Position numbers and translations under genes: made by a program | NCBI GenBank assembly: GCA_947034885.2 | Contig: OX344749.2 | Coordinates: forward strand, 40,577,682-40,641,681 | Source: Thuidium tamariscinum | Taxonomy: Eukaryota > Streptophyta > Bryopsida > Hypnales > Thuidiaceae | DNA length: 64,000 nucleotides | Reading direction: 5' to 3' | Shown: positions 10,075 through 53,474 of the stretch, piece by piece | Layout of the letters: each line of letters begins with the position of its first letter | How positions within the stretch are numbered: position 1 is the stretch's first letter | The notes under the pieces: generated by a model | Told to the model about the DNA's origin: nothing | Databases searched by the model: none | What the model saw: the letters and a program-made list of their open reading frames with translations, nothing else

Positions 10075-13000
10075 ACTTCATATGAGCATCTTCTATACTA
10101 ACTACCAAAATTGAGTACAAATCTATGATGTTTTCGATCAAACAATTATACCATGAGCATTAATAGACAAAGCCCAAAAGTGTATACACAAAAGTTGTAG
10201 TGTACAACATATTCTACATTATCCAATGGAAGTTTGAAGAATTTTTTTTTTATTTGAAAGAAAATTAGTTTGAAAGTTAGCCATGTCTAAAACTTAGTTT
10301 TGATCACTATAATTTGGAATTACTTTATCTTTTGTCAATTTTTTCTTAGAACTTTAAAAATACTTTTCTTTGAATTGGCATATTGTTATACATCATTTCA
10401 AATAGTTGTACACAAAAATTTAAGGAAATTCACATTTATTATAGAACTTACCCCCTCAAGGATCAACATGTGTTTTTTAGTTGTATAGAAATTTTGGGCA
10501 GGTACGTGTGATTATATATTTTTATGTTTTTTGCCCAAATTTTAATAAAAGGTAGGAGCAAGGAATATCTTTCACATACACTAACTTTCATAAAATTTGG
10601 AAATATGAGTCAAAAGTTATGGCCTTATATGTTTCTTTTTTTTGTAACTTGGTAGTTTGGGCAGATACGAAAAAATCACTTTCTTCAAAAACAGAAATTT
10701 GAAATTGGTTTTCAAAAGTTATGGGTCATTGCAAGAAACACCAATCCTATTTCCCGTCACAATGAGAACCACTTTTTTGTTGTCCACTATAACTTTTGGA
10801 GAGTAAGTCCAATGAACATGAAATTTTCATTGAACATACCTAACTTGAAGGTTATTAGATTCCTTTTTCCAAAAATTAAAAAAAATCATTTTATATTTTA
10901 AAAACATTTTTGTTGAGCCGTCACAAGGTGTAGTTTACAATAATCACTATGTTATGAGTGCCCAAATTTAATGATTTATAAACAAAACTTTCATGGTCTA
11001 TATGTATAGGAGTAAAACATATAACTTTCGAATGAAATCTGAAAATATATTATTTCATGTCCTCTGCACGAGTGCAAATTTTTTTCCGTAACACACAATT
11101 TTTGAACATTAAAGATGGTTCTAAAATTATTCCTTTGGTGAAATCTCATTAAAATCAACTCTTTAAAAATGGGAAATTTTTAATTAAATTTTTTTTAATT
11201 TTCCTATTTTTTACAAATTAAAATGTAAAAGTACCAATTTTCATGAGATTTTGCACTTTTCTAGTTCTCCTACTTAGAGATTTTTTCTATGCTTTTCCTT
11301 TGTAGAGTACCTTCTTCTTAAAGGTATATACATGAAACATATTTTTTTATTATTTTTAAAAATCATTTTTCTAACTTTAAAGCCCTCTTGAAGAAAAAAA
11401 AAGAGCATTGTCAAAACGCTACACTTTTTGGTCAATGTATCTTGCAATGACCCTTATGTGTACATAGAAAGCTTTTAATCATTCCATTTTTATCAATGAG
11501 TCAAAAGTTGTAGGTGAGGGCTCTAAAACTAAGCGGGGATTTTCAACCGTCTAGTAGGGGTTGTGAAATGGACACTTGAATTGTCGAAAAATGAACTATG
11601 GATTACAATGGACCTTGATAAGATTTGTTTTTACTTCTTCAATGGATGGTTTAAGAACCACACTTGGTTCATTTCTAATTGAGTGGCTAGGTGTTTACTA
11701 ATTTAATTCAAAATAAGAATTTGTTCTTCAACTACCTTCTTACAAGTATTGAAAAATTTGAAATAATGATTAATTCAAGCATTCATTTCAGATTTACTCT
11801 TAGAAACCATTTCTATTGCTTTATACATTTTGCAATGCTAGTTTTTGGTTTTATTGCTTTATACAAGCCTTGGTTTTTTTTCAAACTATGCAAGGATGGG
11901 TTTCCAAGGGCCTATGATCACAAATAGGGACCTATACTAGATTGTGTTTGAAAATTCATAACTAATTCAATAATGATTCAAAAATTATGAAACAATTTGT
12001 GTTAGATTCTTCATCTATTTTTCTTTGGCTGAAAAATAAACTAAAAATATTTCCATCTCAGGATATACATGAAAAAGGCACATCAATGCTTAAATTATTG
12101 CTTTTTGAGCCTCTTATCTTATGAGGATTTTTTTGGTTGCAAGCAGTTATGGATTCTTTACTTTGAAATAAGCTTTGAAGTCCTTTATCTTACTTAATTT
12201 AAATTTTTTTAAAATCATAGGATGTAAATTGCTTATTACAACATTGCAACCATTGGAATTGGCATTTTTCAATTCCATGATTCAATTCTTAACAATTTAG
12301 TATTTCTAATCATTTTCTATTATTGTCTACTTACTATTTTTTTCCTATATATTGTACAATTCCAAATTATGTGAAAATTTTCAAGCATATGGCCAATTTG
12401 TCTAAAAAAAGAATCCAAAGAAGCACTACCATTTTAGACATTTTTTCATAAGAAATTGAGCTTGCAAAGTACAGTTGCCTTGTTTTTCATAAGGCCAAAA
12501 AAATGATTTCAATGAATTTCAATGCTTACATCTTTCAATCCACATGGTAGAAATGTCTCAAATTTTTACCACATGTTTTAAGTCAACATACTGCAAGATC
12601 CTATAGTTGCTTGTGTCAAAAAAAGCTCTTTTTTAAAGATTTGGTACTAACTCTAAAAATGGCAATTTTTCAACATTTTCGGTGAAAATATAGTCATGAA
12701 ACTTTAAGAGGTAATATATTAACAATTTAGAAAACACACAAATGATGTTGGTTCTCAAAATATTTATATTTCTTTGAAATTGAGAGCATGGGAATGCACT
12801 AGCCATAGTAAAGAGATTATAGATTGCAGTATGGACCATTGTTATATCTTAATGCCTTTGCATTTGAAATGTTTGTTGAATTGGATAATGTGATCAATCT
12901 ATATAAAAAAAATTGAAGGAATTCAAAAAATAGAAAATTGACAAAAATTTCACAAACATTTATAAAATTGGAAGTTATTTTGATGATATTAACAATGATA

Positions 13001-13560
13001 ATTTAAATTTTTGGATTTGTTTATCCAATTATATATAGCATGATCTCTAATATTTGTACAAAAAAGTTGAACCTAAAAAAGCATTCTATGGTTGTAAAAT
13101 ATTTATTGAACATGTGGCTAAATTCAACAAATATTTCAAATGTGATGGTATTAAGATATAACAATTGTCCATGTTGCAATCTATACTCTCTCTACAATGG
13201 CTAATGCATCCCTATGCTCTCAATCTCAAAAGAAATATAAATATTTTGAGGATCAACATCAATTGTGCATTTTCCAAATTCTTTGAAAATTTTGACAAAA
13301 AATAAAGTAATTCCAAATTACAATGATCAAAATTAAATTTTAGACATAGCTAACTTTGAAATCAATTTTCTTTTAAAAATTCTTCAAACTTCAATGGTAA
13401 TGTGGAATATGTTGCACACTACAATTTTTGTGTATACACTTTTGGACTTTGTCCATTTATACTCATGGTATTATTGTTTAAATGAAAACATTACAAACTC
13501 ATTCTCAATTTTGGTAATCAATGTATAAAGATAATTGACATGGTTCTCTTTAAACATTTA
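10075..13560. repeat. Composite repeat block bounded by inverted repeats
   Basis: About 10075-10335 reappears inverted at about 13300-13545, with shared ACCAAAATTGAG, ACCATGAG and GTGTATACACAAAAG in mirrored order. Inside is repeat C (about 10440-12700), which is related to 62640-63900 and is itself interrupted by the fold-back element at 10723-11453. A second inverted repeat pairs about 12726-12885 with 13120-13275 (CAAAATATTTATATTTCTTT; ATTGAGAGCATRGGRATGCA). The arrangement suggests a large, decayed TIR or fold-back element carrying or invaded by repeat C. No transposase frame is recognisable. Confidence 0.55.
10723..11453. mobile_element. Fold-back family element, 731 bp, TSD TTAT
   Basis: Begins GGGTCATTGCAAGAAACACC and ends CTTGCAATGACCC. 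TTAT flanks it at 10719-10722 and 11454-11457. The interior closely matches the element at 43133-43880 in the same order (CATGAAATTTTYATTGAA, AAAAAAAATCATTTTATATT, TCATGAGATTTTGCACTTTT). It lies inside repeat C. The related copy near 62930 continues across the site without the insert. Confidence 0.85.
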
Positions 13561-15148
13561 GTATCCAATGAATGATATAATCTTTCTTTGTAGGTATGAA
13601 GTGTGACTATTCATCCTCAATAATAGGGATGGAAAGGAGAGATCTTCTACAATATTTTGACCTCCAATGGGTATATTTAGCTTATTCAAAATAGATGATG
13701 TCACATGGTATCAAAATGCATGATTTCCACATCAACCAATCCATCCTTCAAATATTAAACTTCTAGTTTAGTAATCAAAAGCCCCCTCCAATTAAACTTC
13801 TACTTTACTAATCAAAACCACCGTTCAATTAAACTTCTACTTTCCTACCAAAAACCATCCTCCAAGTCTATAGGAGTGGTCAAATCATTTCACACAACCC
13901 ACTAACTGACACATATGTCCAAACTAATGCCCCCGTCTTTGTGAAATACTAAAACCCCAAATTTCACAAACAAGATAAATAAATACACAAGGATTGAGGA
14001 AGGGATCTAAATTCCTAAAGGACAAAGTAAGGGAGGAGGCTCAAAAACCATTCAGGCTCTAAAACCACTCACCTTTTGAAATGTATATTTCTGGTACATG
14101 ATGCTTTTTGATCTTTACAGTAATGTACAAAAAGTGAACATTTGAGGGGGTGGGCGATTTTGGAGCCCTATACCATATTGACTTCAGAAATTCATAACTA
14201 ACTCTACAGAGCTCCAAAAAATATGAAACGACTTGGGTTAGATGCCTATTCAAGCTGTCTTTCAAGGAAAATTCACTAGAAAATACTTCAAGATGTTTGA
14301 CCTGCCCAAAATTCTGTTCCAGCCTTTAGATGGTCAGTTTATGGACCTCCTCCCTTAGCATTCTTTGGCAACATCGGTTCTCTGATCAGCCATTCAAGAA
14401 TGGAATTTCCATTTTTTTTCTTCTAAATTTTCATAAAACATATGGTCAAGGAATAGCTTCAAGGCACATCAGTTTTCATGACATTTGACATGGTTAAAAG
14501 TTATTGTACGATATGTAGTTTTGTTTCAGATTTAGAAAATTTTACCTATGATTTATTTCATTTCAAAAGTGATTATTTCATTTTTTTCAAATCAGATAAT
14601 TAATCTAAAAATTAATACAAATCAATAGCAATCTAAAACCAGATAGGGTTCCATCCGATTCAAAATTGGATAAATGAGGATAACAATCAAAGTCTATTGT
14701 GATTTACAGTTATATAAGCAAGAGAGAAAGAAATAGGTAAGAGAGGCTGTCACTAAAGCACAGCCACTTTTGAGGCAGCAGAGGCAGCAGAGGCAGCCAC
14801 CTGTTCCACTGGGTCCAGTCCACAAAGCATAAATAATAAATAAAAACTCTTCCTTCTTCAAATTTCGGTTACTTTTAAGGAATAATTGCCAGAGGAAAAA
14901 CAATCGGTTCTTCAATTGTTATCTTTCACGTCACAAACATGCCCAAATGAAAAACAGGTCTCCTCCATCTTTCTTGCTAAGTCCCCAGTGAGGCACCCGG
15001 TTGCTCAAGTTGACCACGACATGCTTCCACTCCATTGATTCCCTCAAGTTTTCCTGTACTGTACAGTGGTAAGCCTCAGAATAATCAAGGAATCTAGGTT
15101 CGAAGTCTAAATTCGGAATAATACCTGTGCTTCTTTGTGCAGAGCATT
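13561..15148. other. Intergenic DNA downstream of ZW10 with repeat fragments
   Basis: About 13600-13680 is an inverted piece of the 168-bp unit seen at 8160. About 14150-14290 is related to 11940-12070 and 55945-56060 (CATAACTAAYTC, AAATATGAAACRACTTG). About 14300-14540 is a diverged piece of repeat C. A short GGCAGCAGA microsatellite lies near 14772-14800. From about 14900 the sequence becomes more complex and is probably the 3' UTR of the ZW10 gene. No separate gene is supported. Confidence 0.45.
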
Positions 15149-21100: not shown

Positions 21101-22237
21101 CTAGCATACATGCATTGCAGAAAGAATGGTGCTTAATTGCACTTCATTAACGTTCACTCCTGCCTTGCTGTCGCTGCAAGAGACATGGGAATAGATGCGA
21201 AGCTTGGAATCGCGTAAGTTAATTACAACGGCTTTGGCAAACACCTCCTCCAGGAAATTTCCAAGCTGCACATAACCAGTATCAAGAAAAATTAAGGACA
21301 CCTACTTGTGACAAGTATCTCAATGGTAGCATCCGATAATCTTGCAGAATGAGTACATATTGACTTTGAGAATGAATACCACCTTAGCATCAGGTTTCGT
21401 GTTTGATTTTAGGTCGCCTACCAGTCAAACTTTGAACCTCACTAACTTTTGCACATGATACCAAAACAACAAATTCTTTGATGCATTGGAATCCTCTGTG
21501 AGTTGCTAACAAAAATTTATGTATCCATTTGCCTTCCCCACAGAAAATCTCACGGAATTTATTTAGATCGTTGCTGAATTAAAAGTGTCCCAAGTCATAC
21601 ATCCACACGAGGCCATGCAACCGAAACGGAAACCCTAATCTCATACCTGTGCATAACACTTCGCCCACTCGTCTTCCAATAGACGAAACGCCTGCACATT
21701 CTCCCCCTTCCTCTCTTCCTCATCCCTGTCTCCAGTCCACTCCCCCGGAAGCGCCAGCCATTCCCGAATCTCACACAATTTCGTCCCCGACTCCACAAAC
21801 TCTCCTCCAAAAAACGCCCTCTCCGCCGACTTCAAACCCTCGCGCACTCTCGCAATAAATTCCAAGGCAGCAAGATACTCCCGCTTCTCCACCTGTTCGT
21901 CCCGCAACTGCTCCGCCGTGACTGCCAATCTGCAAATCTCGCTGTCGAAAGGAACCTCTCCGTCAAGACCTTCCAAGATCTTATTCACGTCATACGCAAG
22001 CGTCTCGACTCCTCCGCTGGCGACGTGCGCATCTTCGACTATGCTCTGAAATTTATCATAATTTGATGTGAGAATCTCCCGCAGTTGAACTTTGAGCTGG
22101 TCCGATCTGGTGTGCAGATTCTCAGAGAGGATGCGGAGATCGGAAGCGGACAGAGGGGCGGAGTCTTCGGGCTTGGATCCGAGAGAAGAAGTTGTGAATT
22201 CTCGCAGGTCGAAACCTGCGGTGGATCTTTCCATCAT
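15149..22237 (-). CDS. ZW10: Centromere/kinetochore protein ZW10 homolog (NRZ/Dsl1 tether subunit)
   Basis: Fourteen exons, transcribed right to left: 22237-21647, 21265-21110, 20856-20698, 20129-19968, 19639-19403, 18987-18859, 18276-18184, 17990-17895, 17617-17489, 17355-17278, 17052-16894, 16603-16474, 15610-15528 and 15235-15149 (stop TAA). All phases join into 762 codons plus stop, typical for the family. Recognition rests on the C-terminal part: LLDMSLRPITQSWESGDL then HLVKAIFSETPLRAECL, the ZW10 signature, and on KKRKSVVARARDLL and VHQTLQDASKSSPAIAMELY in the middle. In known systems ZW10 works with RINT1/MAG2 and NAG/MIP proteins as an ER tether for Golgi-derived vesicles and with ROD-Zwilch at kinetochores. 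The N-terminal ~200 residues are more diverged. Intron 12 starts with GC. The start codon is the first of two adjacent ATGs (22237 and 22234). Confidence 0.93.
15611..16473 (-). other. ZW10 intron 12 with GC-AG borders
   Basis: The exon reads TTGACAG then GCAAGG, and the intron ends TTTGCAG. Only this non-canonical GC donor joins phase 1 (ACA G) to phase 2 (AC CTG) and gives RLTDLLDMSL, as the family requires. AG/GCAAG is the usual form of plant GC-AG introns. No repeat or gene is seen inside. Confidence 0.8.
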
Positions 22238-22600
22238 TGCGAGTGAAAACTAAAATCGTCTCCGCTAGAGTTTGCGATTCATGTTTGTCGGATTGCGCGT
22301 GAGTCTGTGAGACATCTTCGGGCAATGCTCGAAAATTCAAACCTAAAAATGTTGAAAATCTATGTGATGACTCTTGTTTAGAAAGCCTAATAGAAATGAT
22401 CGTGAAATCATTCTTTTGTCTAATATAGCGATTGAAAACTTAAAACGTCTCCGCTAGAGTTTGCGATTGCGTAAGAATTTGTGAGACCTCTTCGGGCAAT
22501 CATCGAAAATCGAAAATTAAATCCCATGAAATGACTATTCGGAAACCCTAATGTGATGTATCGTGACATCATTCTAAAGGATTGAGTTGTCTGGTGTCGA
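22238..22600 (-). promoter_or_regulatory. ZW10 proximal promoter/leader with ~189-bp tandem duplication
   Basis: Two copies of about 189 bp start at about 22241 and 22430. The 19-base phrase TCCGCTAGAGTTTGCGATT begins at 22261 and 22450, and GAGACMTCTTCGGGCAATC follows in both. The first copy abuts the start codon, so the duplication would repeat leader or core-promoter sequence. Divergence between copies shows it is not an assembly stutter. Confidence 0.8.
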
Positions 22601-24340: not shown

Positions 24341-25073
24341 GGGTTGCTATTATGTGAGTCTAGAAGTGTAAGCCTATGAGCCTAGAAGACTATATTTCTA
24401 GTATAAGTACCTTTATTAAAGAATTCTTCTATGATTTTAGTGTATTTATATTATAGATACCTATATTATGGATGTTTATGTTATAAGCACCTTCAATGCA
24501 CTATAAGAGAAAGGGGTGTTTTAAGTATAGTCCTAGCGATAACATTTTAAGTCATTAACGGATTTTTGAAGCCATTGGAAAACTATGAGTTCCTGGACTA
24601 TAGGAATATAATTTCTGCCACGTAAACAAAAATCCTACGTGGTCGAGAGAGTGCCACGTCATAAATTTATTTATTTTTTGAAAAAAAAATTGGTCTTTTT
24701 TTCATATTTCAAGACCCCCCCCCCCCCAATTTTTATTTTTTTGGTAAATGCTAGCCTGACAACGGCCAGCAATTACGAAAATAGTTTCGGGAAATAGCCC
24801 CGAAATGGCCCTTTGGAGGCCTCAAATCCCCTCTAATGTAATGACCTTTATAAGAGACTTTAAGTAAAAAATAAGTGTCTTTCTAGAAAATTTACTAGAA
24901 AGACACTTATTTCTTACTTAAAGTCTCCTATAAAGATCATTACTTAAAATGTTATTTCTAGGACTATACTTAAAACACCCCTTTTTCTTGTAGTGATGGT
25001 AGTAGTATATCTACTAATATATATACTCAAAGTTCACACACTCATATTTTCATGCTCACATACTAGCATCATT
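24341..25073 (+). mobile_element. TIR element family E, copy 3, split by a CACTA-type insertion
   Basis: Left end GGGTTGCTATTATGTGAG, right end CTCACATACTAGCATCA, imperfect inverted repeats of each other. Colinear with copy 1 (2110-2337) except that the 497-bp element 24499-24995 interrupts it after GCACCTTCAATG. Copy 1 is uninterrupted at the same place and serves as an empty site. Confidence 0.75.
24499..24995. mobile_element. CACTA-type non-autonomous element, 497 bp, TSD ATG
   Basis: Ends CACTATAAGAGAAAGGGGTG and its near reverse complement (ending CTTTTTCTTGTAGTG). ATG flanks it at 24496-24498 and 24996-24998. The TIR continues inward for about 40 bp. A second internal hairpin (AAAGACACTTATTT, arms around 24870 and 24905) and a run of 13 C at 24715-24727 lie inside. 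A fragment of the same element is at 45722-45830. Confidence 0.85.
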
Positions 25074-26510: not shown

Positions 26511-26514
26511 GGAA

Positions 26515-27579
26515 GGGTCATTGCAAGAAACACCAACCACTTTTGTAGCACTTTGCAAAATTTGTTCTTGTCCAATGCTATAACTTTTGATTGATGAATC
26601 CAATGCCCAAACCAAAAAAACTATTTCTAGAATTTTTGATTGCAATCATATTCTATATTTTTCAGAATTTACAAAAAATCATTTTATATTTTAAATTTAT
26701 TTTTGTTAGTTTGTCACACTTTCAAGATTAGGCTTTTTTTAAACAATTGATTGGTTCAAATTAATTATTTTTGGTTGAAATTTTGTGGTATGTTTTTATA
26801 GTAGGTAGGCATATTCCTACCAAATGGCATCTAAAAAAACATTATTTTATGACCTCTACATTAGTACAAACAGGCCTCCCTTGCGTGCATATTTTAGAAC
26901 ATTAGAAATGATTTTGAACTCATTCTTTTAGACAAACCAGTCTTCTCAAATGGCCAATTTTTAGTTTTGTTCAAAATTATTTTCCCTATTTTTTACAAAT
27001 TAAAACATCAATGTATTTATTTTCTAAGACATCATCTTGGACATTGAATTCTAGTAAAGAAAATACATACATTGATGTTTTAATTTGTAAAAAATAGGGA
27101 AAACAATTTTGAACAAAACTAAAAATTGTCCATTTGAGAAGACTTTACAGTGATGAGGTTTGATCAAAAAAATGAGTTCAAAATCATTTCTAATGTTCTG
27201 AAATATGCATGCAAGGGAGGCCTATTTGCACTAATGTAGACGTCATAAAATAATGTTTTTTTGGATGCCCTTTGGTAGGAACATGCCTACCTACTACAAA
27301 AATATACCACAAAAATTTCAATAAAAAATAATTAATTTGAACCAATCAATTGTATAAAAAAGCCTAATCTTGAAAGTGTGACAAATTAACAAAAATAAAT
27401 TTAAAATATAAAATGATTTTTTGTAAATTCTGAAAAATATAGAATATGATTGCAATCAAAAACTCTACAAATAGTTTTTTGGTTTGGGCATTGGATTTAT
27501 CAATCAAAAGTTATAGCATTGGACAAGAACAAATTTTGCAAAGCGCTACAAAAGTGGTTGGTGTTTCTTGCAATGACCC
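26515..27579. mobile_element. Fold-back family element, 1065 bp, TSD GGAA
   Basis: Begins GGGTCATTGCAAGAAACACC, ends GTGTTTCTTGCAATGACCC. GGAA flanks it at 26511-26514 and 27580-27583. The right half is the reverse complement of the left over about 510 bp per arm with few mismatches, leaving a loop of roughly 25 bp around 27040. The whole element would fold into one long hairpin. Arm identity is higher than in the other copies, suggesting recent formation or gene conversion. Open frames inside (for example 27446-27760) are by-products of the arms. Confidence 0.9.
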
Positions 27580-29030: not shown

Positions 29031-32000
29031 CGGGCTACTGAATGTTATGACTATGCACATTCAATTTCTCGTGGATTTTTTATTGCTTGCAAAATCTCTT
29101 GCAGACTTGAGGACTTGCACATTCAGTTTCTAGTGAATTTCTTCATTTCTTGTGGATTCTCTTGCAGACTTGCACATTCGTTTTTTCTGTAGATTTTGTA
29201 TTGCTTGCCCACAGGAATTAATCAGTACAATCATGCAGCATGGATCAAGAGGTGCCAAAAGTAAGTTACTGCCATTTGTTTCCTTCACTGCCATTTTTAC
29301 TCCACATACTGATAGAAAATATTACATTAGCACATATCCAATGTCTATTATTTGATTTCAAGCACAATCCGAAGATTGCAACCAAGAATTATTTTTAGTT
29401 TAAAGTTTTTAAGTGAAAAACTTCATAGTTTGTTGTCATTTTTTAGCCAAATTATTTTTATCTAGTGTAATCTAGCATTGTAATGCCAATAAAAGATTGC
29501 TTCTACCTACATCCTATTTCTAATGTCAATTTCGTTAAATTGGTGATATTCCATTGCATTGGTGCACTTTAAGATACACTGTCTAAAATCAAAATTTGTA
29601 CTTAGTTAGTGGCCAAAAAATAAACCTTTGTAAAGACATATACAATAATTTCTAGCTTGTGGATTATTGCCGATTTAATGAAAATTGTAGAGACTCAAAA
29701 TCACAAACAAGTTTTTGGAGATGAAAGTTAGATTGATTTCTCAACTTTTCATAGTTCAAATTATTTAAAAAAAATTATTCTACTAAGGGAAAAACACCCA
29801 ATACCACACATGTACCTTGCATTGGATCCTAGACTCATCCAAAACTGTCCCTAAACAGTAGTTAATGTGTTCTCCAAATGCTTTATTCTAATTTGATTAC
29901 GCATATTAAAGACACATATCAAAATTTGATTGGCTTATTATTAAGTTTAGCAACGTTTAGATTTAGGGGCATCATTCTATTGAACAATTTTAGTGATTTA
30001 GGGAGCCAACACTTTAGAAAATCATAGAAATTACATACAACATCCAAAAAATCTACCTTTTTTTTAATATTCATGATTTTTACTCGCTAATGCTAGAAAA
30101 ATATTATTTTTAGAAAAACTGCCTCTAAATATACCAAATTCCTTATTTGGACGGTTTTGGATGTTTCTTCCATATGCCAAAATAGGGTCTAAAATTCTAC
30201 ATTAAATACACTTTTGAGTTTTAATAATGAGTTGCCAAGCTCTCATCTTCAAATTAACCCATATTCTTTGAAGGTTCATAAAAAACAAACCTCTCTATCC
30301 TTTATTCTTACTAAATGTTAATATTGAAAATCCTCTATTTTGCCATGAACATTTTTTAAAGGTTAGTTGTCTTCTGGCATAACTATAGACTTTTTAAGCC
30401 TAAAAATGGACACCTTCTTATTTTACAACAATTTGGTCAAATAATTTCTCCAAAATTTGGCAATTTTTTTTTTGTGGCATTCTTAAAAATAACTATTTTC
30501 CACCAATCTCGCCCTAAGGCTACAATAGTAGAAATATGCTATGAATTACCATCTTTAACATTTGACTCAGAATTGTTGACAATGATTTTTGGGAATCTTG
30601 TAAAAATAGTTATCATCCTACAACCTTTGGAACTTTTACAATTTAGACTAGTGCATGCTTTGAAATTTGTACTTACACTCAATAGATTAGACTTTGCACA
30701 TTAAAAATAGCATATTGAATGTTGTCATTTTAACAAAATTCATTATGATTGTAAATGAGTCATTGCCTACACTTTTCAATCATTGTCAATAGTCATTTAG
30801 GGCATGTTTTTCTACTAATATACATTTTATAACAAATCTAACTCTCTATAAACACTGATCATAGTACATGGTTGGAGGAAATCTTTCTTTTTCTTTCTTT
30901 TTTTGCACTATTTGCATCTTTTTCATAGCAAGCATGGTCATATATGACATTTTTTCATTCATTATAAAAATATAGCCAAGAAGAATTTAAGAAACTTTTA
31001 TCTTATAAATATTAAAAATTTTAATTAAATTTTTATAATTTATTAAATTTTTTCGTAATAAGTAACTTAGTTAAAAAAGATGCTTATTTTTTCCTAAGAT
31101 TTTCAATAAGCTATTTTGAAATGAGTAATCTTTGTAATAAATGCCATTTTAAATGATTTGTCAATTTTTGAACCACCTTTACGACAAAGGCCATTCTCCT
31201 CTCAAAAACCAAAGTTTGATTGTATGGTTTGAAAGATATTTGCACTCAAAATTGGAAAAAACAAGTTTTTTAACATGATTGGCTTGCAAATTCATGACTT
31301 TGACCACCATTTGTTGAAAAATTTTGTGTGTTGAAGAACTAAGTTGAAAATCTATAATTTTTTTATTTTTTAAAGCTTGATTTTCATTCTTTGAATATCT
31401 TTGAAGAGAAGTAATTACAAGATTGAAAGAAAAACTAAATCATTGATAGCCTAAGATGGGATTGAAAAATAGAAATTCCAATGGTTTGATTGTTGAAACA
31501 ACAAACATAATCTTTTCCAACAATTTTTTGAAAAATCATGAATATTTCATTTAGAAATGAATCCTATGAATTATTTCTTCAAGAAGATGCTCAAACTCTC
31601 TAATAAACAAGATTGTTCATAACTTTAACATCTTTAATCCAAATGGAATGAATCAAAACTTCAAATGTAGACAAAAATAAATCTTTTAGTAAAAAAAATT
31701 AGTTTAATTTCAAATTTTTGTAGATTTCTTTATTTGCTTGGTCACATATAAATTATGTTAAAGATGGCATAACTTTTGCTATTAAGTACTAACTAGGATA
31801 AAAACTATATTTTCACAAAGCTAATATATTTTTTCTATCTTATTGGAAAGTTTCACAAAGTTCCATGAACAAGTGAAGTCACAAAAAACTTCCCAAAATT
31901 ATTTTTGTCCCTTTAAAGGACAATTATGGTCTTTTAGGGATTCAATGTGATATTTGAAATTCTATAGATTTTGATTGTCTTTTAAAAAATAGTAATGCTT

Positions 32001-33955: not shown

Positions 33956-34477
33956 TCAAACTTTTCCCAACAACCCACCCACATCAAACAATGCATGCTT
34001 CATAAATGTCTCCTTTCTCATCTTCATTGGCAAGACCACCCAATCTCGTATCCACACCACCACTGTCCACGCACTCTGCGTCACCCACCCAATCTTATAT
34101 GCCTCCTCTGCCAATGCACATGTCCTAGCCCACCTCTCTGCTTGATATCCCTCCAATGCTTCCTTCACTCTCTCTTTGGTTGAGTTTTTTGCCTGCAAAT
34201 TTTAGAATGCAAAAGAAAGGCAATTTAGGTGACTGAATATGAGGACATCTAAGGCATCCAACTATGGGTTGGCCTAATTTACAAAACATACAACAAAAGT
34301 CAAATTATAATGGATGCTCTCAAAATTTTGATGCAAGATGGAAAAATTCACCATTTTCAACTTTTCAAGGAAATTTTAAAATGTTATGAATAAATTCTTG
34401 GATCAACTGAGTATTCTATTTTAGAAATTTCAACAATTTCAACACCTTTGGGGCATCTTCTACTATTTCCTTCATCA

Positions 34478-34963
<486 letters not shown>

Positions 34964-37671: not shown

Positions 37672-37747
37672 AACTATTCGCAAATTCTTCAAAACTAAAA
37701 CTCTTCATAACACTTTTGCCTCATTGATCAAAATAGAATGATTCAAA

Positions 37748-38263
37748 GATTTGCCTATAGGTATATATGAAAAAAACAATTTCAAATTTTAGTTTCTTAA
37801 AGAAGTTATTTTTAGAGAATTTTTTTGGTTGCCTAGGCTATTGGTCAAGCAATGAAAACTACAAATCATACAATAAATTTTTAACCCATATAGTTAAAAG
37901 TTATAAAAATTGTTGGGCCTTAAAGGTACTCCTTGAGAAAAAATTGTGTGGAAATTTAGATTAAAAATAAATAGATACTCAAATTATAGTGAGTTGCTTA
38001 AATTAGATTTGCCTATAGGTATATATGAAAAAAACAATTTCAAATTTTAGTTTCTTAAAGAAGTTATTTTTAGAGAATTTTTTTGGTTGCCTAGGCTATT
38101 GGTCAAGCAATGAAAACTACAAATCAGACAATAACTTTTTAACCCATATAGTTAAAAGTTATAAAAATTGTTAGGCCTTAATGGTACTCTTTGAGAAAAA
38201 GTTGTGTGGAAATTTAGATTAAAAATAAATAGATACTCAAATTATAGTGAGTTGCTTAAATTA
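37748..38263. repeat. Two-copy tandem duplication, 258-bp unit
   Basis: GATTTGCCTATAGGTATATA begins at 37748 and again at 38006. The units differ at only a handful of positions (for example CATACAATAAA against CAGACAATAAC), so the duplication is recent. It lies in intron 2 of the monooxygenase gene. Confidence 0.9.
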
Positions 38264-38516
38264 AATTGCTATGTTGACAAAAAAAATTACAATTTAATGA
38301 TTTAGGGGTTAACCTTAACTCCATAAGCACCCTAAAATTCATACTCTCAATGATTGATGAAATGAGTGCTTTTCCAAAGGTGGCCTTTTGTCCAAGAGAA
38401 TAATTTTTATAAATCCAACATATAATTTTTTTTTTACATAACATTTAGTAGCAAGGTTGGCATTGTCTTGGCTCTACAATGATGGTGTGGAATATGCCAC
38501 ACCCAATGGCATTCAT

Positions 38517-39596
38517 GGGTGAATGCACGAAACACCTGTACTATTTGTTGAGTTTTTTTGGGTTGACCGCTTTAAGATGGCTCTAACTTTTGAATAAAAA
38601 ACTAAGTGCCCAAAATAAAAAAAGATTTCTAGATATCTTGACTCACATTATTATCCTTATCTTTTACAAATTTAAAAAAATCATTTGATATTTAAAATTC
38701 AATTTTGTTAATTTGTCACACTTTGACATTGTGGGGTTTTTAGTACTATTTAGAACCCAAAAAAACTAATTTTGAGCTGAATATTTGAGTGGATATTCTA
38801 TTAGTAGACTTATAGCTTATCTCTAAAGGAATTTTAAAAATAGTCATTTTTTTGATGTGTAGAAGTCCACAAAGAGACCTTCTTTCTACTTGCTTTTTGA
38901 AACATATAAAACATTCTTTTGGTGATTTTCTTGGTCAAGCCTTATCACCAAAAAGTCTTCTCAAATGGCCAATTTTTAGATTTGTTTTTTCTATTTTTTA
39001 CAAATTAAAATGTTGAAGTTGTATTTTTCTTCATTAGAATTTTGGACATAAAACACATAGAATTCCGGTGAAGAAAATACATACTTCAATGTTTTAATTA
39101 ATAAAAAATAAAAAATATTTTTTAAAATTAAAATAAAAATTGGTCATTTGAGAAGACTTTTTGGTGATAAGGCTTGACCAAGAAAATCACCAAAAAAATG
39201 TTTTACACATTTCAAAAAGCAAGCAGAAAAAAGGTCTCTTTGTAGACTTCTACACCACATGAAAATGACTATTTTTGAAATTCCTTTGGAGATAAGCTAT
39301 AATTCTACTAAGAAAACATCCTCTGAAAATTTCAGCTCAAAATTCATTTTTTTGGGTTCTAAATAGTACTAAAAACCCCTAAATTGGAATGTGTGACAAA
39401 AAATCGGGGGCTATTTTAAAATATTAAAATATTTTTTTTAAATCCTCAAAAATTCTGAATGATGTATAATAGTTATGAGTACCCATTTAAAAAAATTTGA
39501 ATCATTTGGAGCTAAAAAACAAAAGTTATGGCTAAAAAACTAGTCACCGCAAAACATGATGCAATACAATAGTACAAGCGTTTCATGCAATCACCC
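38517..39596. mobile_element. Fold-back family element, 1080 bp, TSD TCAT
   Basis: Begins GGGTGAATGCACGAAACACC, ends GTTTCATGCAATCACCC. TCAT flanks it at 38513-38516 and 39597-39600. The two halves are inverted relatives (CTTGGTCAAGCCTTATCACC around 38932 against GGTGATAAGGCTTGACCAAG around 39163), more diverged than in the 26515 copy. It sits in monooxygenase intron 2. Confidence 0.85.
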
Positions 39597-39688
39597 TCAT
39601 CACTAAATAATTTGTTGGGTGTGGAATATGCCTCCCCTTCATTGTAAAGGCATGGCATGCTACTGAATGTTAAGTAGGTAGAATGTTT

Positions 39689-40003
39689 ATGGCAAATTTT
39701 GTAAAAATGACGATATTCCACATATTATTTTTCAAACTGCACAATTTGAACTGAAAACTGACATCTATGACAAGTATAGATTTCGAGACATCTAGGACAC
39801 ATATAGATTTCCAAAATCTATGACAAATTATTTAAATTTTAAACTACATGGTTAAAATGTCATGGGCTCATATAGATTTTAGACATCTACAACACATGTA
39901 GATGTCAAAAATCTATGACAGGTTTAGATTTCAGACCACGCAATTTGAACTATAAAAACTGTCAAACTAATGGAATACAGTCATTTTAATGAAATTCGCC
40001 ATG
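39689..40003. mobile_element. Inverted-repeat element J, copy 1
   Basis: Left end resembles ATGGCAAATTTTGTAAAAATG; the right end is its imperfect reverse complement (CATTTTAATGAAATTCGCCAT). The interior is rich in the repeated words TAGATTTC and ATCTA. A second copy, interrupted, is at about 43940-44987. It lies about 120 bp beyond the inferred end of monooxygenase exon 2. Confidence 0.6.
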
Positions 40004-41187
40004 TTTTGAAATCAACCCTTTCTTCTCATTTTTTTGGGCTAGCTTGATGAAATTGAGGAAGGAATATATGAACGATTAGTACACAATTCAAAAAAGGAGG
40101 GATTCAAGTGCCGATCTCCTACTCGGCCAGATTGATGAACATGGCTCGCAGTTGGTCGCCCACACCCAGAACATCCAGGACTCGGAATGCATTGTCCCAC
40201 AGAAGGATGCCACCTCCCCGCGCCCTCAGTGCCTCTGCTTGCTCCAACACCAGCGACTACAGCCCAACTCTGATCATCAGATTGACTCACAATTCAGCAG
40301 TGTTCAATCCACTGGTTGATATGAGATTGTCAAGTTTGTTAAATTGACGTCCGCCGTGACTTTGGGACCAAAGAATTAATTGAGACAGTCATCTGCACAA
40401 AGCTCTTAAACCTAGGACTAGTCTTTCGATTTATTTATGTTAACAGATATTTCAGATTCTTAGGCCATTTTTTCATTCATTTTCTAGGACCAGTATAGAT
40501 TTAAGACCTCAAGGTCTTGAAATCTAGGAGCGGTAAACATTTTACACCACACTGTCGAAACCTGAAAATGCCAAGTTTCCGCCATTTGAACGAAATATCC
40601 GTTTGTTCCAAATGTTCAGCGTACCCTGAACTGAAAGTACCCAAGTCACGGAACGTCCACCAATATCTAAAAATTCTCAAAACTAGGACTGGTAGAGAGT
40701 ATTTAATGTATTTTCCAATGAAGTGATCTTCAAAGTGCCGAATTAAGTCCTGGAGTTACACCAATTGAATCCAGATTTGACGTTGTCTGTCGACTCAAGT
40801 CTCTAAAGCCTTTGCAGAGCTGATGGGACAGCCAGGTTTCGATGCATCAGGCATACCCATCTAGCTGTTACGTTGCTGGTACGTACTATGAAAGGAAATC
40901 GAGGAAAGGAGAAGTCCAGATCAAATTATTTTTAACACCCTAGCCTGAAATTCATTAATCAATGTGCGGCTTAATTACTCAAGCTCATGCTCAATTATGC
41001 AAGCTGTAACTGAGTTTTAGTTCCAGAAAAGGGATTTATTGTCTGCAGGAGCAGGCACCGTCCGTCGGTCGTACCTGTGAAGTGCAAGCGCACAAGCGAG
41101 GCCTCCAATCCCCCCGCCCACAATTATGATATTCTCCTCCAGGACCTCCTGTGGAGACGACTCACCTCTGTCGCCTTTGCTATCCAT

Positions 41188-43132: not shown

Positions 43133-43880
43133 GGGTCATTGCAAGAACGGTGGTACTATTTTGCTGTCACAATTGGACATACTCTCTCATTGTCTACAAT
43201 AACTTTTGTAGCACAAGTCGAATGAACATGAAATTTTTATTGAAGATGTATAACTTTATTGTTATCACATCTCTTATTTTTCAGAAATTAAAAAAAATCA
43301 TTTTATATTTAAAAACTATTTTTGTTAATTTGTCACAAGTTGAGGTTTAGGGGTTTTCACTACGTTATGAACCCCTAAATTTAAATATTTGGAGTTGAAA
43401 CTTTCATGGTCTACTTGCATAATAAAAAAAACTCATATCTACCAAAGGAAATCTAAAAATACGTTATTTTAAGTCCTCCACATGAGTACAAATAGCTCTT
43501 CTATTGTACACAATTTTTGAACATTGAAGATGGTTCTTGGATCTTCTTTTTTGGTGAAATGTCATCAATATCAACTCTTCGTAAATGGACAATTTTTAGT
43601 TTTAAGAAAAATTCCTTTCTCTATTTTCTATAAATTAAAATGTGAAATTACAATGACAAAACTACTTTCATGAGATTTTGCACTTTTCTAGTTCACCTAC
43701 TTAGAAAAAATTTCTATACTTTTCCTTCTTAGGGTACCTTCTTTTTAAAGATATATATATATGAAATTTATTTTTTACCTTTTTTAAAAATTATTTTTCT
43801 AATTTTAAAGTACTCCCGAAAAAAATAGGAGTACTGTGAAAAACGCTACGCTTTTTGAACGCCGTTTCTTGCAATGACCC
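43133..43880. mobile_element. Fold-back family element, 748 bp, TSD AATG
   Basis: Begins GGGTCATTGCAAGAACGGTG, ends CGTTTCTTGCAATGACCC. AATG flanks it at 43129-43132 and 43881-43884. Colinear with the element at 10723-11453. Confidence 0.88.
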
Positions 43881-43939: not shown

Positions 43940-44987
43940 TATGGTGAATTTCATTAAAATGGAAATATTCCATTAGTTTGGCACTTTTGACAGTTCAAAC
44001 CAAGTGGTCAGAAATCTAAAATTGTCCGGTGATTGCAAGAAACATTTGCCAATTTTGTTGTGTTTGGCTGATTTTTTGGGAGTACTTTAAAATTAAAAAA
44101 TTAATTTTAAGAAAATTTTAAAAATATGAATAATGTATACACCTCTAAGACAAAGGTTTTCACTAAAGGAAATGGATAGAAAAATTCTCTAAGTAGGAGA
44201 ACTTGAAAAGTGCCAAGCCTCAAGAAAATACATACCTTCATGTTTTAATTAGGGAAAAATAGTAAAAATAAGTATTTTTCAAAAAATAGAAAGTGGCCAT
44301 TTGCAATAACTTTATAGAGATGGTCATTCACCAAAAAATCCACCAAAATAATATTTTATATGTTTCAAAATACAAGCAAAAAAGAGCTCACTTTGTAGAA
44401 TTCCACACCACATAAAATTAACTATTTTTTAAAATCCTTCCCTGGAGAGCTAAAAGTCTACTAGAAGACCATCTCATTCAAATTGCATCTTAAAATCATT
44501 AAAAAAAAGGTACTCCATAGTACTAAAATCCCCTAAATTGCAAAGTGTGAGTGTGTGACATCCAATTGGGGTCTATTTTTTAATAGTAAAATATTTTTGT
44601 AAAATAATGAAAAAATTACGTAAACTGTATGATAGTTATGAGTACCTTCTCTTTAAATCTTGAGTCAGTTAGAGCCAAAACACAAAAGTTATGGCCAAAA
44701 AATAGATTAGCAGATGTAATGTGACACAAAATAGGACAAGCGTTTCTTGCAATCACCTTGTTATGGATTTTTGAAATCTACATGAGTTGTAGATGTTTGA
44801 AATCTATAGTTGTCTAAGATGTTTCAGACTATGTGATTTGAAATCTAAAACTATCATAGATTTTGAAATCTACATGGGTCCTAGATGTTTTGATATCTAT
44901 ACCCTTCCTAGATGTCAATTTTGAGTTTAGACCGTGCAGTCTGAAAATGAGATAATGAATACTACCCTTTTAACGAAATTTGCCATG
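43940..44987. mobile_element. Inverted-repeat element J, copy 2, split by a fold-back element
   Basis: Left end ATGGTGAATTTCATTAAAATG; right end AACGAAATTTGCCAT. Related to copy 1 (39689-40003). The fold-back element 44027-44758 lies inside it, so J is the older insertion. Confidence 0.6.
44027..44758. mobile_element. Fold-back family element, 732 bp, imperfect TSD
   Basis: Ends CGGTGATTGCAAGAAAC and GTTTCTTGCAATCACCT. The flanking tetranucleotides are TGTC (44023-44026) and TGTT (44759-44762), one mismatch. The first and last base of the usual GGG/CCC terminus are changed. The interior resembles 38517-39596 and 52435-53153. Confidence 0.75.
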
Positions 44988-45007
44988 TATGTAGACAATT
45001 GTGGGTG

Positions 45008-46047
45008 TTTTTACCTTATTTGTCATCTAAAAATCTAAAACCTCCCACTTTGAAAGTTTATAAGTTGATAGTTACCTTCTAGCAAGAGCATTTTTTCATT
45101 TTTTATAAAGTGTCAATGTCATAGTGATATTTCAAATTTCAACATTCATTTATATATTGGATAGAAACTATGATGTAATTTGCAAATATTGCATGTCTAT
45201 ATTTTTATTTTCATCCACAATATAGTGATTTTACATAAGATTTATTTCATTTGGGAGTTTTTTGGCAAAAAAATTCATGGTTTGTTGCCATTTTTTAACG
45301 AATTTTTTTTTGGTGCAATTTGGCACTATAATGTCTAAAAAAAATTATACTTTAAGATACATCTTGCTTCTAATGTCAATTTTGTTGAATTGCCAATATT
45401 CAATGGATGCATTATGCTATCATTAGAAACCAAAATCTTTACTTAGTTAGCTCTAGGCCAAAAATTAAACCTTTGTGAAAATACATGTTATAATTGTTGA
45501 TTTATGGAATATTCTAATTTAATGAAATTGATGTTGGATGATTGCAAGAAACACTTGTACTATTTGTTGTGTTTTTAGAAGTATTGTAAATTTTTTTCAA
45601 GAATGTCTTAAAATTAAAAAAACAAATTTTTTTAATTTGAAAAATATAAAGAATTTATATGTACCTTTAAAAAGAAGATTTACAAGAAAGGAAAAATATA
45701 GGAAATTTTTCTAAATAGGAGACATTAGGAGGGATTTGAGGGCTCCCAGGGGCTGTTTTAGGGTTTGTTCCCGAAAGGCCGAAACTGTTGGAGGAACTGC
45801 TAGCTGCTATCAGCTAACAATTAACCAAAAGGAATGGGTTTTTATAAACTTCCCTAATAGAATCAGAGTAGACTCTATATTCTAATCAAAATTCATGTTC
45901 GTAATAGGAAATATACCTTCAATTTGTTTAATACATGAGCTTGTTTCCAACCAAAACAAACATCATTACAAGTATTAAAACTACCTCAATTTCTATCAAT
46001 TTACCTAGTCCAAAATGATAATTTGTTTAATGCTAGCAGATCTAGCA
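45008..46047. repeat. Intergenic DNA with truncated elements
   Basis: About 45235-45535 is family I (also 29395-29700). About 45538-45722 is a truncated fold-back family end (ATGATTGCAAGAAACACTTG) without its partner. About 45722-45830 is a fragment of the CACTA-type element seen whole at 24499-24995 (ATTAGRRGGGATTTGAGG, TTCCCGAAA). No gene is supported. Confidence 0.6.
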
Positions 46048-46049
46048 TA

Positions 46050-49038: not shown

Positions 49039-51072
49039 CTAGTAATGTAAATATAGTGCCTTAATTTCTTCTGTTGAAGCAAGTAAACTGCCAATCAACA
49101 GCCAAGATGTAGGTGTCAGTGCTTGTATTTGTACAAGCCTAGGGTCAGGGGTTTTCATGTTGCCTCTGTCAAGAGGGATTGGAAGCTGGTTAGTTGGCCC
49201 TCTTGGCACCCTAGTTATTTCAAATTTTGGAGGAGTGGAATTACGGGAAGGATGAAGTGGCAGACTTATAGAGTTGGGTTGGAGCCTGGTTTCTTTGGTG
49301 ATTAGGTTTGCCATTGCAGAATTAGGGGGACTGGGGGAGAGATGGACAGTTGGGATTGGAGCCTCGGAGGTCAGTTTGCACCTTTGGGGAGGGATCAGAT
49401 GTTGTGGAGATAGGAATTCGGGCGGACAATCTGTGGAAGGGCAGAGCTATTGGAGTGGACGGATAGTCCGCGAAGGGCAGGAGCCGGACAGTTGACAGAC
49501 AGTCCACAAAGGCGCAGTGGGACGAGTTGGCGGAGGACGGGTGAGCCATGAGGGGCGAGCTGCAATGAGGGAGCCAAACTGTCCGGCATGGACTACTGCA
49601 ATGAGGAAGCCAACGAAGGAGGTGCAGACTGCTAGGTGAGTTGGCCGCAGCGGAGTGAGCGAACTGCCTCGGAGGAGTTGGTCGTGGAGAAGTTTGGGGC
49701 CTGGGTAGCGTGGTTGGGGTTTGGCTGTTTGGGCATTAACATAGCAATTCCAGCCTTCTAGGATTCATCGAAGGTTGTTAAGTTGAGGTTGCAAAGTTAG
49801 GGTCCGTACTTGATTGAGTATTGATCTATTGGAGGTTGCAAATTGCTTGAATGTCTGAAAGTCTAAGGCACCGATCTGATTATTGTAATGCTTGGCAAGC
49901 GATGGCAGCAACAAATTTGGAGGTGGGGTACAAAATTGCAAATGACTAGATAATTCAACACCATGATGAAGGTGGCGACGTTTTGCTCTACAACTATGGT
50001 GATCAGATTTGATGATGAATGTTGTGATTAAAGATTCAAGTGGTGCTCTAGTAGTCCAGTCGCTCTTATTTGTGATCTTTTAATTTTGTAAGTTTTTGAA
50101 TTATCTATTCTATGTTTCAGTCATTAAGTGGAAATGAAGTTTCTTGTTTGGCCATTTGAGCATTTAGTATTTTGATTGTGTTGTACATGGATGGCTGGAC
50201 CTTGGCTGCAGCATTAAAGAATGAAGATTGAGGAGTCAGAAGTCTAAACTTATTCAGATTTTGTAAAATTGCTTTGGAAACTTTAGCAGTTCAATAGTTA
50301 GCTGCCAAGTTGGCTAGTGTCAACTGTCAAGTGGTGCTTTGTGCAATTTTAAGGAAATAAAGTACCAACGGATTAAATCATTAAGCCATTAAGTGATTAA
50401 GTTATTATTGAAGTAAGGCGGCTATACCAAGCAACTTGTTAGGAAAATCATGAGCAGTTTTAAATTTCAGAATTTCCCTCCAGATATTGATCTATGACAA
50501 ATTTCAGATTTTAATTTAGTTTTTTGTGCCTTCTATTTCAAGTTTAAATTTGGCTTATCATAATTTGTTGAGGTGATTTTAGTTGTAAAAGAGATTTGAA
50601 TATTAAAGCTGTTGTAAATGTGAAATGGTTGAATTGTTGTAGCCTTGTAGATTTGTATCCTTAGTGTTGGTTGCAGCCTTGCAAGGTAGTAAGGTGCAGC
50701 TTTCTTTTAGGGTTTGGAGCTTTGTTGATTTGGTCTAGTTGTCTATCTTGTTGCAACTTTCAAATGCAGTGGGGGCATTTTCATGTTTGGGGGTTTTTGA
50801 GGTCCGTTTCTATAATATTCACGGCTTCAGTGTTGAGTTTGGCCTTTACAAGCTTATAGGATCATTTTAGCAATTTTGACAGATAAAGTGCTTTGAATCA
50901 GTTGAGTTGTTTAAGCATATGGTGTGTATAGAAGTTTAAATTACAACATTTTGGTTGTAGAGAGTGAAGTTCATTGTATGTTGGGATTGTTTATCTCATT
51001 TTGCTTTTAGGGATCATTTATCTTTTGCATTCTTCTTTAAAGATCATTTGTTGGGATTATTGGTGGCTGAGT
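49039..51072. other. GC-elevated segment upstream of the hAT-like gene
   Basis: About 49130-49740 is clearly richer in G on the + strand than its surroundings, with open frames on both strands that look like compositional by-products. It may be the leader of the following transposase-like gene or an unrelated repeat. From 49750 to 51060 the DNA is T-rich with no recognised exon. Confidence 0.3.
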
Positions 51073-52434
51073 ATGGAAGGTTCTGCTCCTATAGATGTAG
51101 GCTTGGCTGCTGCAGCTAATGCAGCAGCCTTGAAGAGAACTACAGCATTGCATGCTAAGAAAATGGCTAGAATTCAAAAGGAAAAAGAAGCAGCTACTCG
51201 AAAAGCACTGCAGAATAGTCAGGTTATTGAAGAGAGTGGGCGTGAGAAGGCACAATAGAAGGAAAACAATGCAGTCATACTTTTTAGCTTCCCATAATTC
51301 AAAAAATGGAGATGTTGTTGTAGTGCAAGAGTTTTCTGTTCCATTGGTAAACCAGACACCTTCTTTAGATTCGAATAGTATTTTTCCCATGCAAGAAGCA
51401 GTTGTGTCTTTGGACACATTCCATAATTTTGTTGGAGCACAGTCTGCTTCAACGTCTGTTGTTGTCTTAGGAAGTATTCCAGATACAGTTATCTTGTCTA
51501 GTGATGATTCAGCCTTCACTGTCTTTGAGGATAATCCTGATTATGTTGCTTTACATAACTTACATGTAGCATGTGAGAGTGAGGAAGCATCTACAAATGA
51601 TGACTATGAGATTCTTCCCCCTTCCAAGCATTCTAAGAAGAATTACGATTTAGCATGTAAATTTCAGATGGAGTGATCTGCTAAATTACCTTGGGTTGAA
51701 ATGGTTTTAGCAGTTGATGGAGGATTGCATATGGTCCGTTGTCATGTGTGCATTGAAATGGAAAAGAAACCCTATACACTTTGCAGATTCATGAGAAGAG
51801 GAAGAAACATAAAAGCAACATGTTGTTGTATGCAGCCAAGCGACCTACTACAGTGTTGAAGCAGATCAACAACAACAATACCATTGAGTCTAGGAAAAAA
51901 CGAGTGCAGTTTGCTACTTTAATTTGTTTCAGATTCTTAGTGAGGGTAGACTAATGACTGAGTTTTCTTCTAGATCTGCCTTATATGAGCTGCTTGTAGT
52001 CTCTGATTTACCAAGGATGCATTGGAGTGATGGAGTAGGCTGCATTATGGCATCTCACATGTGGACTATAGTTCAAGATAGAATGAAGGCCATTGTTGGA
52101 GCTACTACATACATTGCCATCATTATTGATGAAACTACAACTGTAGACAATTGCAGTTACATTGCTGTTCATTGTTATGTCATGCAAAATTGGACCCGTG
52201 TTTCCATGTTCATCTTGTTGTAGAAGCTTGAGGCAAATGGAGCTTCAACAGATAATTTGACTTTTGTCATTATTTCAGCTTTGAGTATTAAAGTGGAATT
52301 GTCTGTAGAAGCCATTGCATCTAAGGTCATGTGTTTTGGTGTTGATGGAGTAGCTTCTTTTCAGGATCAAAGAAGTGGAGTTACAAAGCAGATTCAAACC
52401 TCTCATGCCCCTTTTGCCAAAGGTGTTCACTGCA

Positions 52435-53153
52435 GAGTCGTTGTAAGAAACACTTACCAGTTTTGTTTAAAAATGGCTCAAAATCAGTGAATCCTTTGAG
52501 TCTTGTGACTTTTGGAATAAATTTTTTTTTAAATTGAAAAAAATATGGATAATTTGAAGAGAAATGAGAATATTATGTCTCTTGAAATTCAAACCTAAGA
52601 AAAAAAATTCTAAATGTTATAGACAATGGAAAACACAATGAAAATAGCTATTTTTTCACTAATTTGATAAAAATAGTAAAAAAATTCAAAAAATGAAAAT
52701 GAATTTTTTTCAAGTAAAGGTCTTTCTTTTCCAACAAATTTCATCTTTGGAAAAAATAAATTTTATTCTCCACACTTGCGCAAAGTTAGCTACTTTGACG
52801 ACATGTGGAGGTTGAACAGTATAGTATTTTCAAAAAATCTCTTTGTGGTCTTGTGTAACTTTAGGTAAGGTCCTTGCATGACAATTTTCAGCTCAAAATT
52901 TGCATTTTTGGGTAAAAAATAGGACTAAAACCCCCCAAAATGGCCAAAGTAGACACCCAATCGGGGGCAATTTAAAAATAGTAAAATAATTTTGAAAAAA
53001 TTGAAAAAATTGCACAAAACGTAAAACTTTTGTAGGCACCTTCATTTCAAGTTTCAAGTCAAATAAAAAAATGATGCAAAAATGATGAGCAAAAAACTAC
53101 CTCCTAAAGGTCAAGGGGACAAAAAAAAGGACAAGTGCTTCTTGCAATCACCT
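52435..53153. mobile_element. Fold-back family element, 719 bp, TSD TGCA, inside the transposase
   Basis: The left end is worn (GAGTCGTTGTAAGAAACAC); the right end CTTCTTGCAATCACCT is good. TGCA flanks it at 52431-52434 and 53154-53157. Coding sequence reads continuously up to the left duplication (VHC) and resumes directly at the right one (MAHKCNLAF), so the insertion point is exact. The interior resembles 38517-39596 and 44027-44758. Confidence 0.88.
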
Positions 53154-53474
53154 TGCATGGCTCACAAATGCAATCTGGCCTTCAAGGCATTGTCCTCTTT
53201 AGACATTATGTCTGTCATTGAAGATTTGTTGAGAGTTTGTCACAACTACTTTACATATAGCCCTAAGAAATATGCCGAATTCCACAACCTTGCACTGTTG
53301 ATGGAAACAAAAGGCTTGAAGTTGCTCAAGAATGTGGCCACCCATTGGGTATCTCTAATTGACCCTCTAAGGCGACTTTTAAGTGAATACCGCTCAGTTG
53401 TGGTCAAGAGCAATGTTGATTCTACCAACAACAAAGAAACTATAAGATTTCTTTTGATATGCTTATTTCATTGA

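Follow-up and report, generated by a model that had tools for sequence, protein, structure and literature searches.

Transposons of the Sola superfamily leave 4-bp target-site duplications (TSDs); their termini vary greatly, their terminal repeats range from 11 to 1124 bp, and they are present in the moss Physcomitrella (PMC10741241). They are also listed for the fern Ceratopteris (PMC6890710) and for Capsicum (PMC9033089) and seem to be uncommon in flowering plants (PMC10741241). In two amoebozoans the duplications of Sola2 are AT-rich (AWWT; PMC3627910). Ginger elements, likewise known in plants, leave 4-6 bp (PMC10741241). Here we describe a family of short elements with 4-bp TSDs in a stretch of 64,000 nucleotides from Thuidium tamariscinum (Bryopsida; assembly GCA_947034885.2, contig OX344749.2, positions 40,577,682 to 40,641,681 of the forward strand), referred to as the window. 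The evidence indicates, with a probability of about 0.87, that it is an old and very abundant non-autonomous cut-and-paste DNA transposon family, about 730 bp in length and similar to the miniature inverted-repeat transposable elements (MITEs), with a fold-back lineage.

The routine scheme for plant MITEs assigns them to five superfamilies according to duplication length and ends, and a 4-bp family of thousands of copies would be misplaced or overlooked by it. The present elements resemble plant MITEs in being short, AT-rich and non-coding, and in having thousands of dispersed copies, terminal repeats and target duplications. They differ in their diverse 4-bp TSD, whereas the five superfamilies used in the survey of PMC12550479 have other lengths. 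For this comparison the lengths were taken from PMC10741241, except that of PIF/Harbinger, which is general knowledge. One program in that survey accepted duplications of 2-10 bp, and such elements may therefore be filed there under a different name.

Elements in the window and their target-site duplications

A sequence-only reading of the window had proposed six related elements, five of them with perfect flanking 4-mers. When the outer bases and flanks were read directly, all six were found exactly at the positions proposed. Four belong to a short form, i.e. E1 (10723..11453, + strand, 731 bp, TSD TTAT/TTAT), E4 (43133..43880, +, 748 bp, AATG/AATG) and, in reversed orientation, E5 (44027..44758, -, 732 bp, TGTC/TGTT) and E6 (52435..53153, -, 719 bp, TGCA/TGCA), the last lying within a coding region. 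The other two are fold-backs, E2 (26515..27579, +, 1065 bp, GGAA/GGAA) and E3 (38517..39596, +, 1080 bp, TCAT/TCAT). The five 4-mers named by the earlier reading were perfect as it had claimed, and the flanks of E5 were the imperfect pair.

The ends of the family are GGGTSATTGCA..TGCAATSACCC, with termini GGGTSATTGCAAGAAACAC. Allowing at most three mismatches, the end motif occurs 14 times in the window versus a mean of 1.0 (maximum 4) in 100 shuffles. All six elements are homologous over most of their length, and a profile built from the four short ones matched, above the inclusion threshold, only parts of E1-E6 in the window and a truncated seventh copy, E7 (45536..45722, -), which has one end only and is adjoined by another repeat at 45723. 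The six elements are non-coding, their longest stop-free frames being 46-71 amino acids. E1, E4, E5 and E6 are colinear, about 720-750 bp long, and their terminal repeats agree at 14-17 of the first 20 bases; inverted repeats make up most of the element in E2, E3 and their relatives, and not in these four. The proposal of one mobile family with 4-bp duplications was upheld, whereas the term fold-back, which had been applied to the family as a whole, had to be restricted, as only E2 and E3 of the six have long arms.

Comparison of left with right flanks at a length of 4 gave a perfect match in 5/6 pairs within elements versus 0/30 between elements, and none of the other lengths from 2 to 12 gave a perfect within-element match among the six. 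With a random 4-mer match rate of 0.0066 in the window, the probability of at least five matches in six is ~8e-11.

Three independent sites show that exactly 4 bp are duplicated. A paralogue of the E5 surroundings without the element (39729..40007, -) is 78% identical, aligns without gaps and has a single TGTC; the right-hand TGTT of E5 is therefore a mutated copy of the TSD. The corresponding empty site for E1 (62731..62990, +) is 72% identical, also gapless, and has a single TTAT. These were the two clean cases among eight paralogue comparisons for the E1 and E5 surroundings, three others being gapped at or beside the insertion point and three not reaching it. The third site is that of E6, which interrupts a transposase-like gene. 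The coding sequence before it (52224..52434, +) ends in frame with ..GVHC, and that after it (53154..53474, +) begins with the TSD copy TGCA and continues with MAHKCNLA... On removal of E6 together with one TGCA the frame closes exactly, ..AKGVHC being followed directly by MAHKCNLAFK... Seven of the 11 relatives found span this point, and six of the seven are contiguous with the same spacing (P0015, P0017, P0018, P0019, P0021 and P0022).

The interrupted gene itself (window 51134-55941) is broken by E6 and by stops and has relatives in public protein collections. A Pfam scan of the gene and of its relatives gave no match; from its motifs we take it to be hAT-like. Within it, at 53485-54330, a degenerate tandem repeat (..actaagttgtaggacttg..) was recognized by eye and is perhaps intronic.

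Genomic copies and the question of superfamily

In the whole host assembly (363.2 Mb, 19 contigs) the exact 17-bp end GGGTSATTGCAAGAAAC occurs 3,645 times in forward and 3,767 times in reverse orientation, i.e. 7,412 times, while the end pattern read backwards, which served as control, occurs 0 times. This implies about 3,700 elements if each had both ends exact. The true number is probably higher, because only 4/12 of the ends in the window are exact by the 17-bp pattern. Besides E1, genome matches to E1 comprised 39 full or near-full-length copies scored at 86-89%. Being short and non-coding, with terminal inverted repeats and 7,412 exact ends, the family has the structure of a MITE. The 17-mer is also present in 3 viral and 37 prokaryote contigs. 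When the six elements were compared with these 40 loci by BLAST, no match reached the scale of an element (best, 97 bp at 70% with E 2.4e-6, in a stretch of L007 that has 77% A+T and lies off the end motif; longest, 122 bp with E 0.09), and we read these occurrences as chance.

The length of the duplication was tabulated for 78 candidates, which consisted of the six window elements, the 20 best E1 matches, 20 neighbouring end pairs and 32 of 40 unpaired ends, namely those for which the script located the opposing end. One candidate (L070) is not a real element, its ends coming from two different elements. A perfect 4-bp duplication was present in 61/78, and one of 5-12 bp in 0/78, whereas a 4-bp match between elements, as control, was found in 77/6006 comparisons. 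By set, perfect duplications were counted as follows (5/6 in the window, 16/20 among the best E1 matches, 15/20 among neighbouring pairs and 25/32 among unpaired ends). The check on other genomic copies that the sequence-only reading had called for thus came out in favour of a 4-bp duplication, none being longer.

The 61 perfect duplications comprise 39 distinct sequences. Their positions 1 and 4 are A/T in 90% and 87% and C in 2% and 3% of the cases, and the inner positions are G or C in about a third. The fifth base before the TSD is T (54%) and the fifth after it is A (57%), in mirrored fashion. A target of this symmetry would result if the active sites of the transposase act as a symmetric pair. 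As to size, 64/78 candidates measure 676-756 bp and 7/78 measure 1,065-1,082 bp, in a table that is biased towards the short form by the 20 best E1 matches.

A neighbour over at least 90% of its length was found for 68 of 71 sampled elements, with a nearest-neighbour identity of 92.2% in the median (maximum 96.2%, minimum 66.1%). Within the window, pairwise differences among the short elements amount to 25-50%, and only 1/24 TSD positions differs. If each copy had diverged by 0.125 since its insertion, TSD changes as rare as this would have P = 0.016. Most of the divergence between elements is therefore probably older than these insertions, which suggests that several diverged lineages moved side by side.

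The sequence-only reading had set the common plant superfamilies aside because they leave duplications of other lengths, and this exclusion is supported by the 61/78 perfect duplications with none longer. PIF/Harbinger elements have a 3-bp duplication (TAA/TNA), and they are excluded on that length; a 3-bp match was found in 3/78, one in each of three sets, L066 and L082 being TTTT runs that also match at 4. One could suppose that a known superfamily such as Mutator or hAT here leaves an unusually short duplication, as fold-back forms are classically Mutator-like and GGG termini occur in several superfamilies. The complete absence of duplications of 5-12 bp, with exactly 4 bp in 61 candidates, makes this improbable. 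Considered singly, the 8-bp duplication of hAT and the 7-12 bp of Mutator/MULE each occurred in 0/78, and instead of the TA of Tc1/mariner 4-bp duplications of diverse sequence were seen (features of these superfamilies and of CACTA and Ginger from PMC10741241). The CAC..GTG termini of CACTA and Chapaev (for the latter, PMC4079192) do not correspond to the present family, most copies of which begin with GGG. A TTAA target, as used by piggyBac and Kolobok, is at odds with the 39 distinct TSDs among 61, TTAA being found in 1/16 of the perfect best E1 copies. Ginger resembles the family in its 4-6 bp duplication and its presence in plants. It is unlike it in its TG..CA termini, the ends here being GGGTSATTGCA..TGCAATSACCC and thus GGG..CCC.

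What Sola and this family have in common are the 4-bp duplication (61/78 perfect, none longer) and the variable terminal repeats, and Sola is reported from a moss, a fern and pepper. In addition, the A/T-rich outer positions of the TSD recall the AWWT of Sola2 (PMC3627910). That the family is an abundant non-autonomous Sola branch in this plant we put at a little below even odds. Against it stand the inner TSD positions, roughly one third of which are G or C; moreover, the length of a duplication alone does not define a superfamily, and Sola is seemingly uncommon in flowering plants (PMC10741241). Furthermore, the elements here are 0.7-1.1 kb and non-coding, and no transposase was present among the ends sampled.

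A cut-and-paste superfamily that is undescribed, or not yet recorded in plants, could also drive the family. In its favour the TG..CA of Ginger, the TTAA of Kolobok and piggyBac and the CAC..GTG of Chapaev, as given in the cited parts of the literature, are all unfitting. Repbase uses the first 11 terminal bases and the duplication length as match criterion (PMC4455052). The words of the terminal inverted repeats occur in 21 of 5.39 million open-access papers, none of which, as judged by title, deals with transposons, an absence that says little about Repbase or Dfam. Moreover, the termini of Sola are variable, and the 4-bp groups compared by description were Ginger, Kolobok, piggyBac and Chapaev; Academ elements leave 3-4 bp. 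We regard an undescribed superfamily as a rather unlikely source, though one to be taken seriously. The enzyme most likely belongs to a superfamily with 4-bp duplications. Among those with a name Sola is the best candidate, and an undescribed superfamily ranks second; the rest of the weight lies with known superfamilies that behave unusually, or with groups outside those considered. The fuller proposition, that the ends together with the 4-bp target with A/T at its outer positions mark an undescribed plant superfamily of thousands of copies with hairpin derivatives whose arms are kept alike by conversion, is doubtful. In its behaviour the family corresponds to MITEs that have given rise to fold-back forms, and the chance that it represents a new superfamily is modest, though real. 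Should the enzyme be of the Sola type, the family would represent a large-scale amplification of Sola in a land plant; otherwise it points to a new transposase.

The fold-back subfamily

E2 and E3 (1,065 and 1,080 bp) are palindromes in which the left part of the short form, ~520 bp long, is joined to its own inverted copy. In E2 the left arm (26515..27025, +) matches this part, and the right arm (27058..27579, -) is an inverted copy of the left, with an identity of about 94-95%; a single long hairpin of -497.8 kcal/mol is predicted for the element. The arms of E3 are 72.5-74% identical and mosaic, the outer left being nearest to E2 and the outer right nearest to E5, while the inner arms are alike at 0.86-0.95. 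Copies like E2 are present elsewhere in the genome (L075, L088, L096 and L125). With E2 included they span 1,065-1,082 bp, and they can be aligned over their entire length with one another or with E2. Of two further E2-like copies, L081 is shortened and L069 carries a nested short element, and L111 is an E3-like fold-back (71%). Perfect TSDs flank 7/9 fold-back copies.

When the arms were placed in a tree, those of E2, of L075 and of L088 paired by copy in each case (support 0.93-0.99). Correspondingly, the arm identity within a copy is 0.947 (E2), 0.966 (L075) and 0.934 (L088), and between these three copies it is 0.867-0.914. Simple copying of a palindrome should give a difference between the arms within a copy that is at least as large as that between copies. 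Therefore, either homogenisation or repeated formation must have acted. The latter would mean that palindromes formed independently time and again, and it agrees with the central spacers of E2 and E3 being only weakly alike. The E2-like copies, however, are near one size (1,065-1,082 bp), can be aligned end to end and have between-copy arms that are 87-91% identical, and it is less likely that palindromes arose repeatedly at an identical position in each of them. We consider repeated formation unlikely on these grounds. The near-constant size of the fold-backs favours homogenisation within copies. A common origin of the E2 and E3 palindromes, tried on the basis of the spacer, was set aside, as the similarity is weak (252/5000 shuffles score as high).

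Fold-back elements such as MuDR-Foldback, Galileo and FARE are comparable in that the E2-like and E3-like copies are almost wholly inverted repeat. They have a duplication of 7-12 bp, in contrast to the 4 bp here, and differ further in that the fold-backs here are a subfamily only, which has the ends and one half in common with ordinary short-repeat elements. A fold-back branch beside colinear short-repeat relatives offers a natural test of how inverted arms stay alike.

E3 is situated in the loop of another inverted repeat (window 38464-38506 and 39615-39657; 43-nt arms, 79% complementary), and this fold-back seems to have landed mid-way in another hairpin.

Search for a transposase, proposed mode of transposition and neighbouring sequences

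The Pfam scan of the window, which covered 17/19 stop-free frames of at least 120 amino acids, recognized only a FAD-binding domain, in agreement with the sequence-only reading that no transposase with the family ends is visible there. In the genome 80 of the 100 listed exact ends and 16/82 ends with an odd interior were sampled, the 40 unpaired ends being read over 1.3 kb and the 16 odd-interior ends over 2.5 kb. Of the 100 listed exact ends, 20 (+,-) pairs of neighbours delimit elements of 389-1818 bp, with no autonomous partner among them. The pair of 1818 bp was dismissed as a longer element, since there a fold-back contains a nested short element, and so was that of 2455 bp, which is the above-mentioned L070. 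The odd-interior ends had been obtained with a pattern excluding the usual inner bases, which gave 82 places; in the 16 that were read no transposase was seen, and 14/16 retain family sequence close to the end, in a short, nested, interrupted or truncated state.

L122 and L123 were rejected as autonomous candidates, as they represent one segmental duplication that is 93% identical and includes 20 bases of flank. It is a 1.3-kb segment with a decayed family member, the copies of which lie on C1 near 3.003 and 3.130 Mb, about 127 kb apart. Three frames of more than 110 amino acids in L135 were likewise discarded as genes of the element; two of them are located beyond its far end, the third being on the opposite strand near the opposite end of the stretch.

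A number of observations tell against a cut-and-paste family with a uniform 4-bp duplication and a fold-back lineage. No perfect 4-bp duplication is present in 17/78 candidates, of which seven match at 3/4 positions, four at 2, five at 1 and one at 0, and one of the 20 best E1 copies matches at 0/4. Two fold-backs are likewise imperfect, L075 with 3 mismatches and L096 with 2. At or beside the insertion point gaps occur in two paralogues for E1 (37712-37967 and 31621-31724) and one for E5 (39831-39964), and at the E6 site P0023 is without 3 residues. The central spacers of E2 and E3 are weak evidence of one common palindrome. Finally, neither a transposase nor a longer autonomous copy was present among the ends sampled, a small part of the 7,412; 9/40 unpaired ends retain the family sequence for fewer than 610 of their first 750 bases, their continuation not being followed, and in L131 and L136 the sequence adjoining the end motif is unrelated for over 1.2 kb, contains no 110-amino-acid frame and was not followed either.

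In the mechanism that we propose for this non-autonomous family, a transposase supplied in trans would recognize the GGGTSATTGCAAGAAACAC termini and excise the element, which would be joined to target DNA at a 4-bp stagger. Filling of the gaps by host repair would then give the 4-bp duplication observed at the insertion sites. One lineage would have become fold-back through an inverted duplication of the left half with its own end, resulting in a palindrome with two like ends. This palindrome would still have been transposed, copies of it with TSDs being found, and its arms may be kept alike inside a copy, for which gene conversion or hairpin-templated repair would be the simplest means.

Other repeats are found inside or against ends of the GGGT family. 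A second family of short elements (about 290 bp; ends CATTAG..TTAATG or CTAATG) is present at window 24549-24838 (-), from window 45723 onward and at about 38-330 of L138 (in the orientation of its terminal inverted repeats). In L138 the CATTAG-type element lies just inside the 17-bp end, a duplication not being evident by eye, and CATTAG occurs within the 33 bases shown in 10/82 odd-interior ends. L135, a member of the GGGT family with TSD GGGA and a minus-strand end on C3, has an insert of about 490 bp at about 38-530, directly inside one of its ends. This insert is bounded by AAATTATGAACCCAA and an inverted copy, and is apparently a third element family. At C1:40707626, C1:41709250 and C8:24283128 (G000) a second end motif is found within about 10 bases of the first, as would result from the insertion of one element into the terminus of another.

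With regard to genes, the window contains the amino-terminal part of a ZW10-like protein gene (21641-22249, -), whose best relative is 66% identical over most of the length and one relative of which is named ZW10 by its source. The FAD-binding domain recognized by Pfam is an exon with PF01494 at window 34475-34963 (-).

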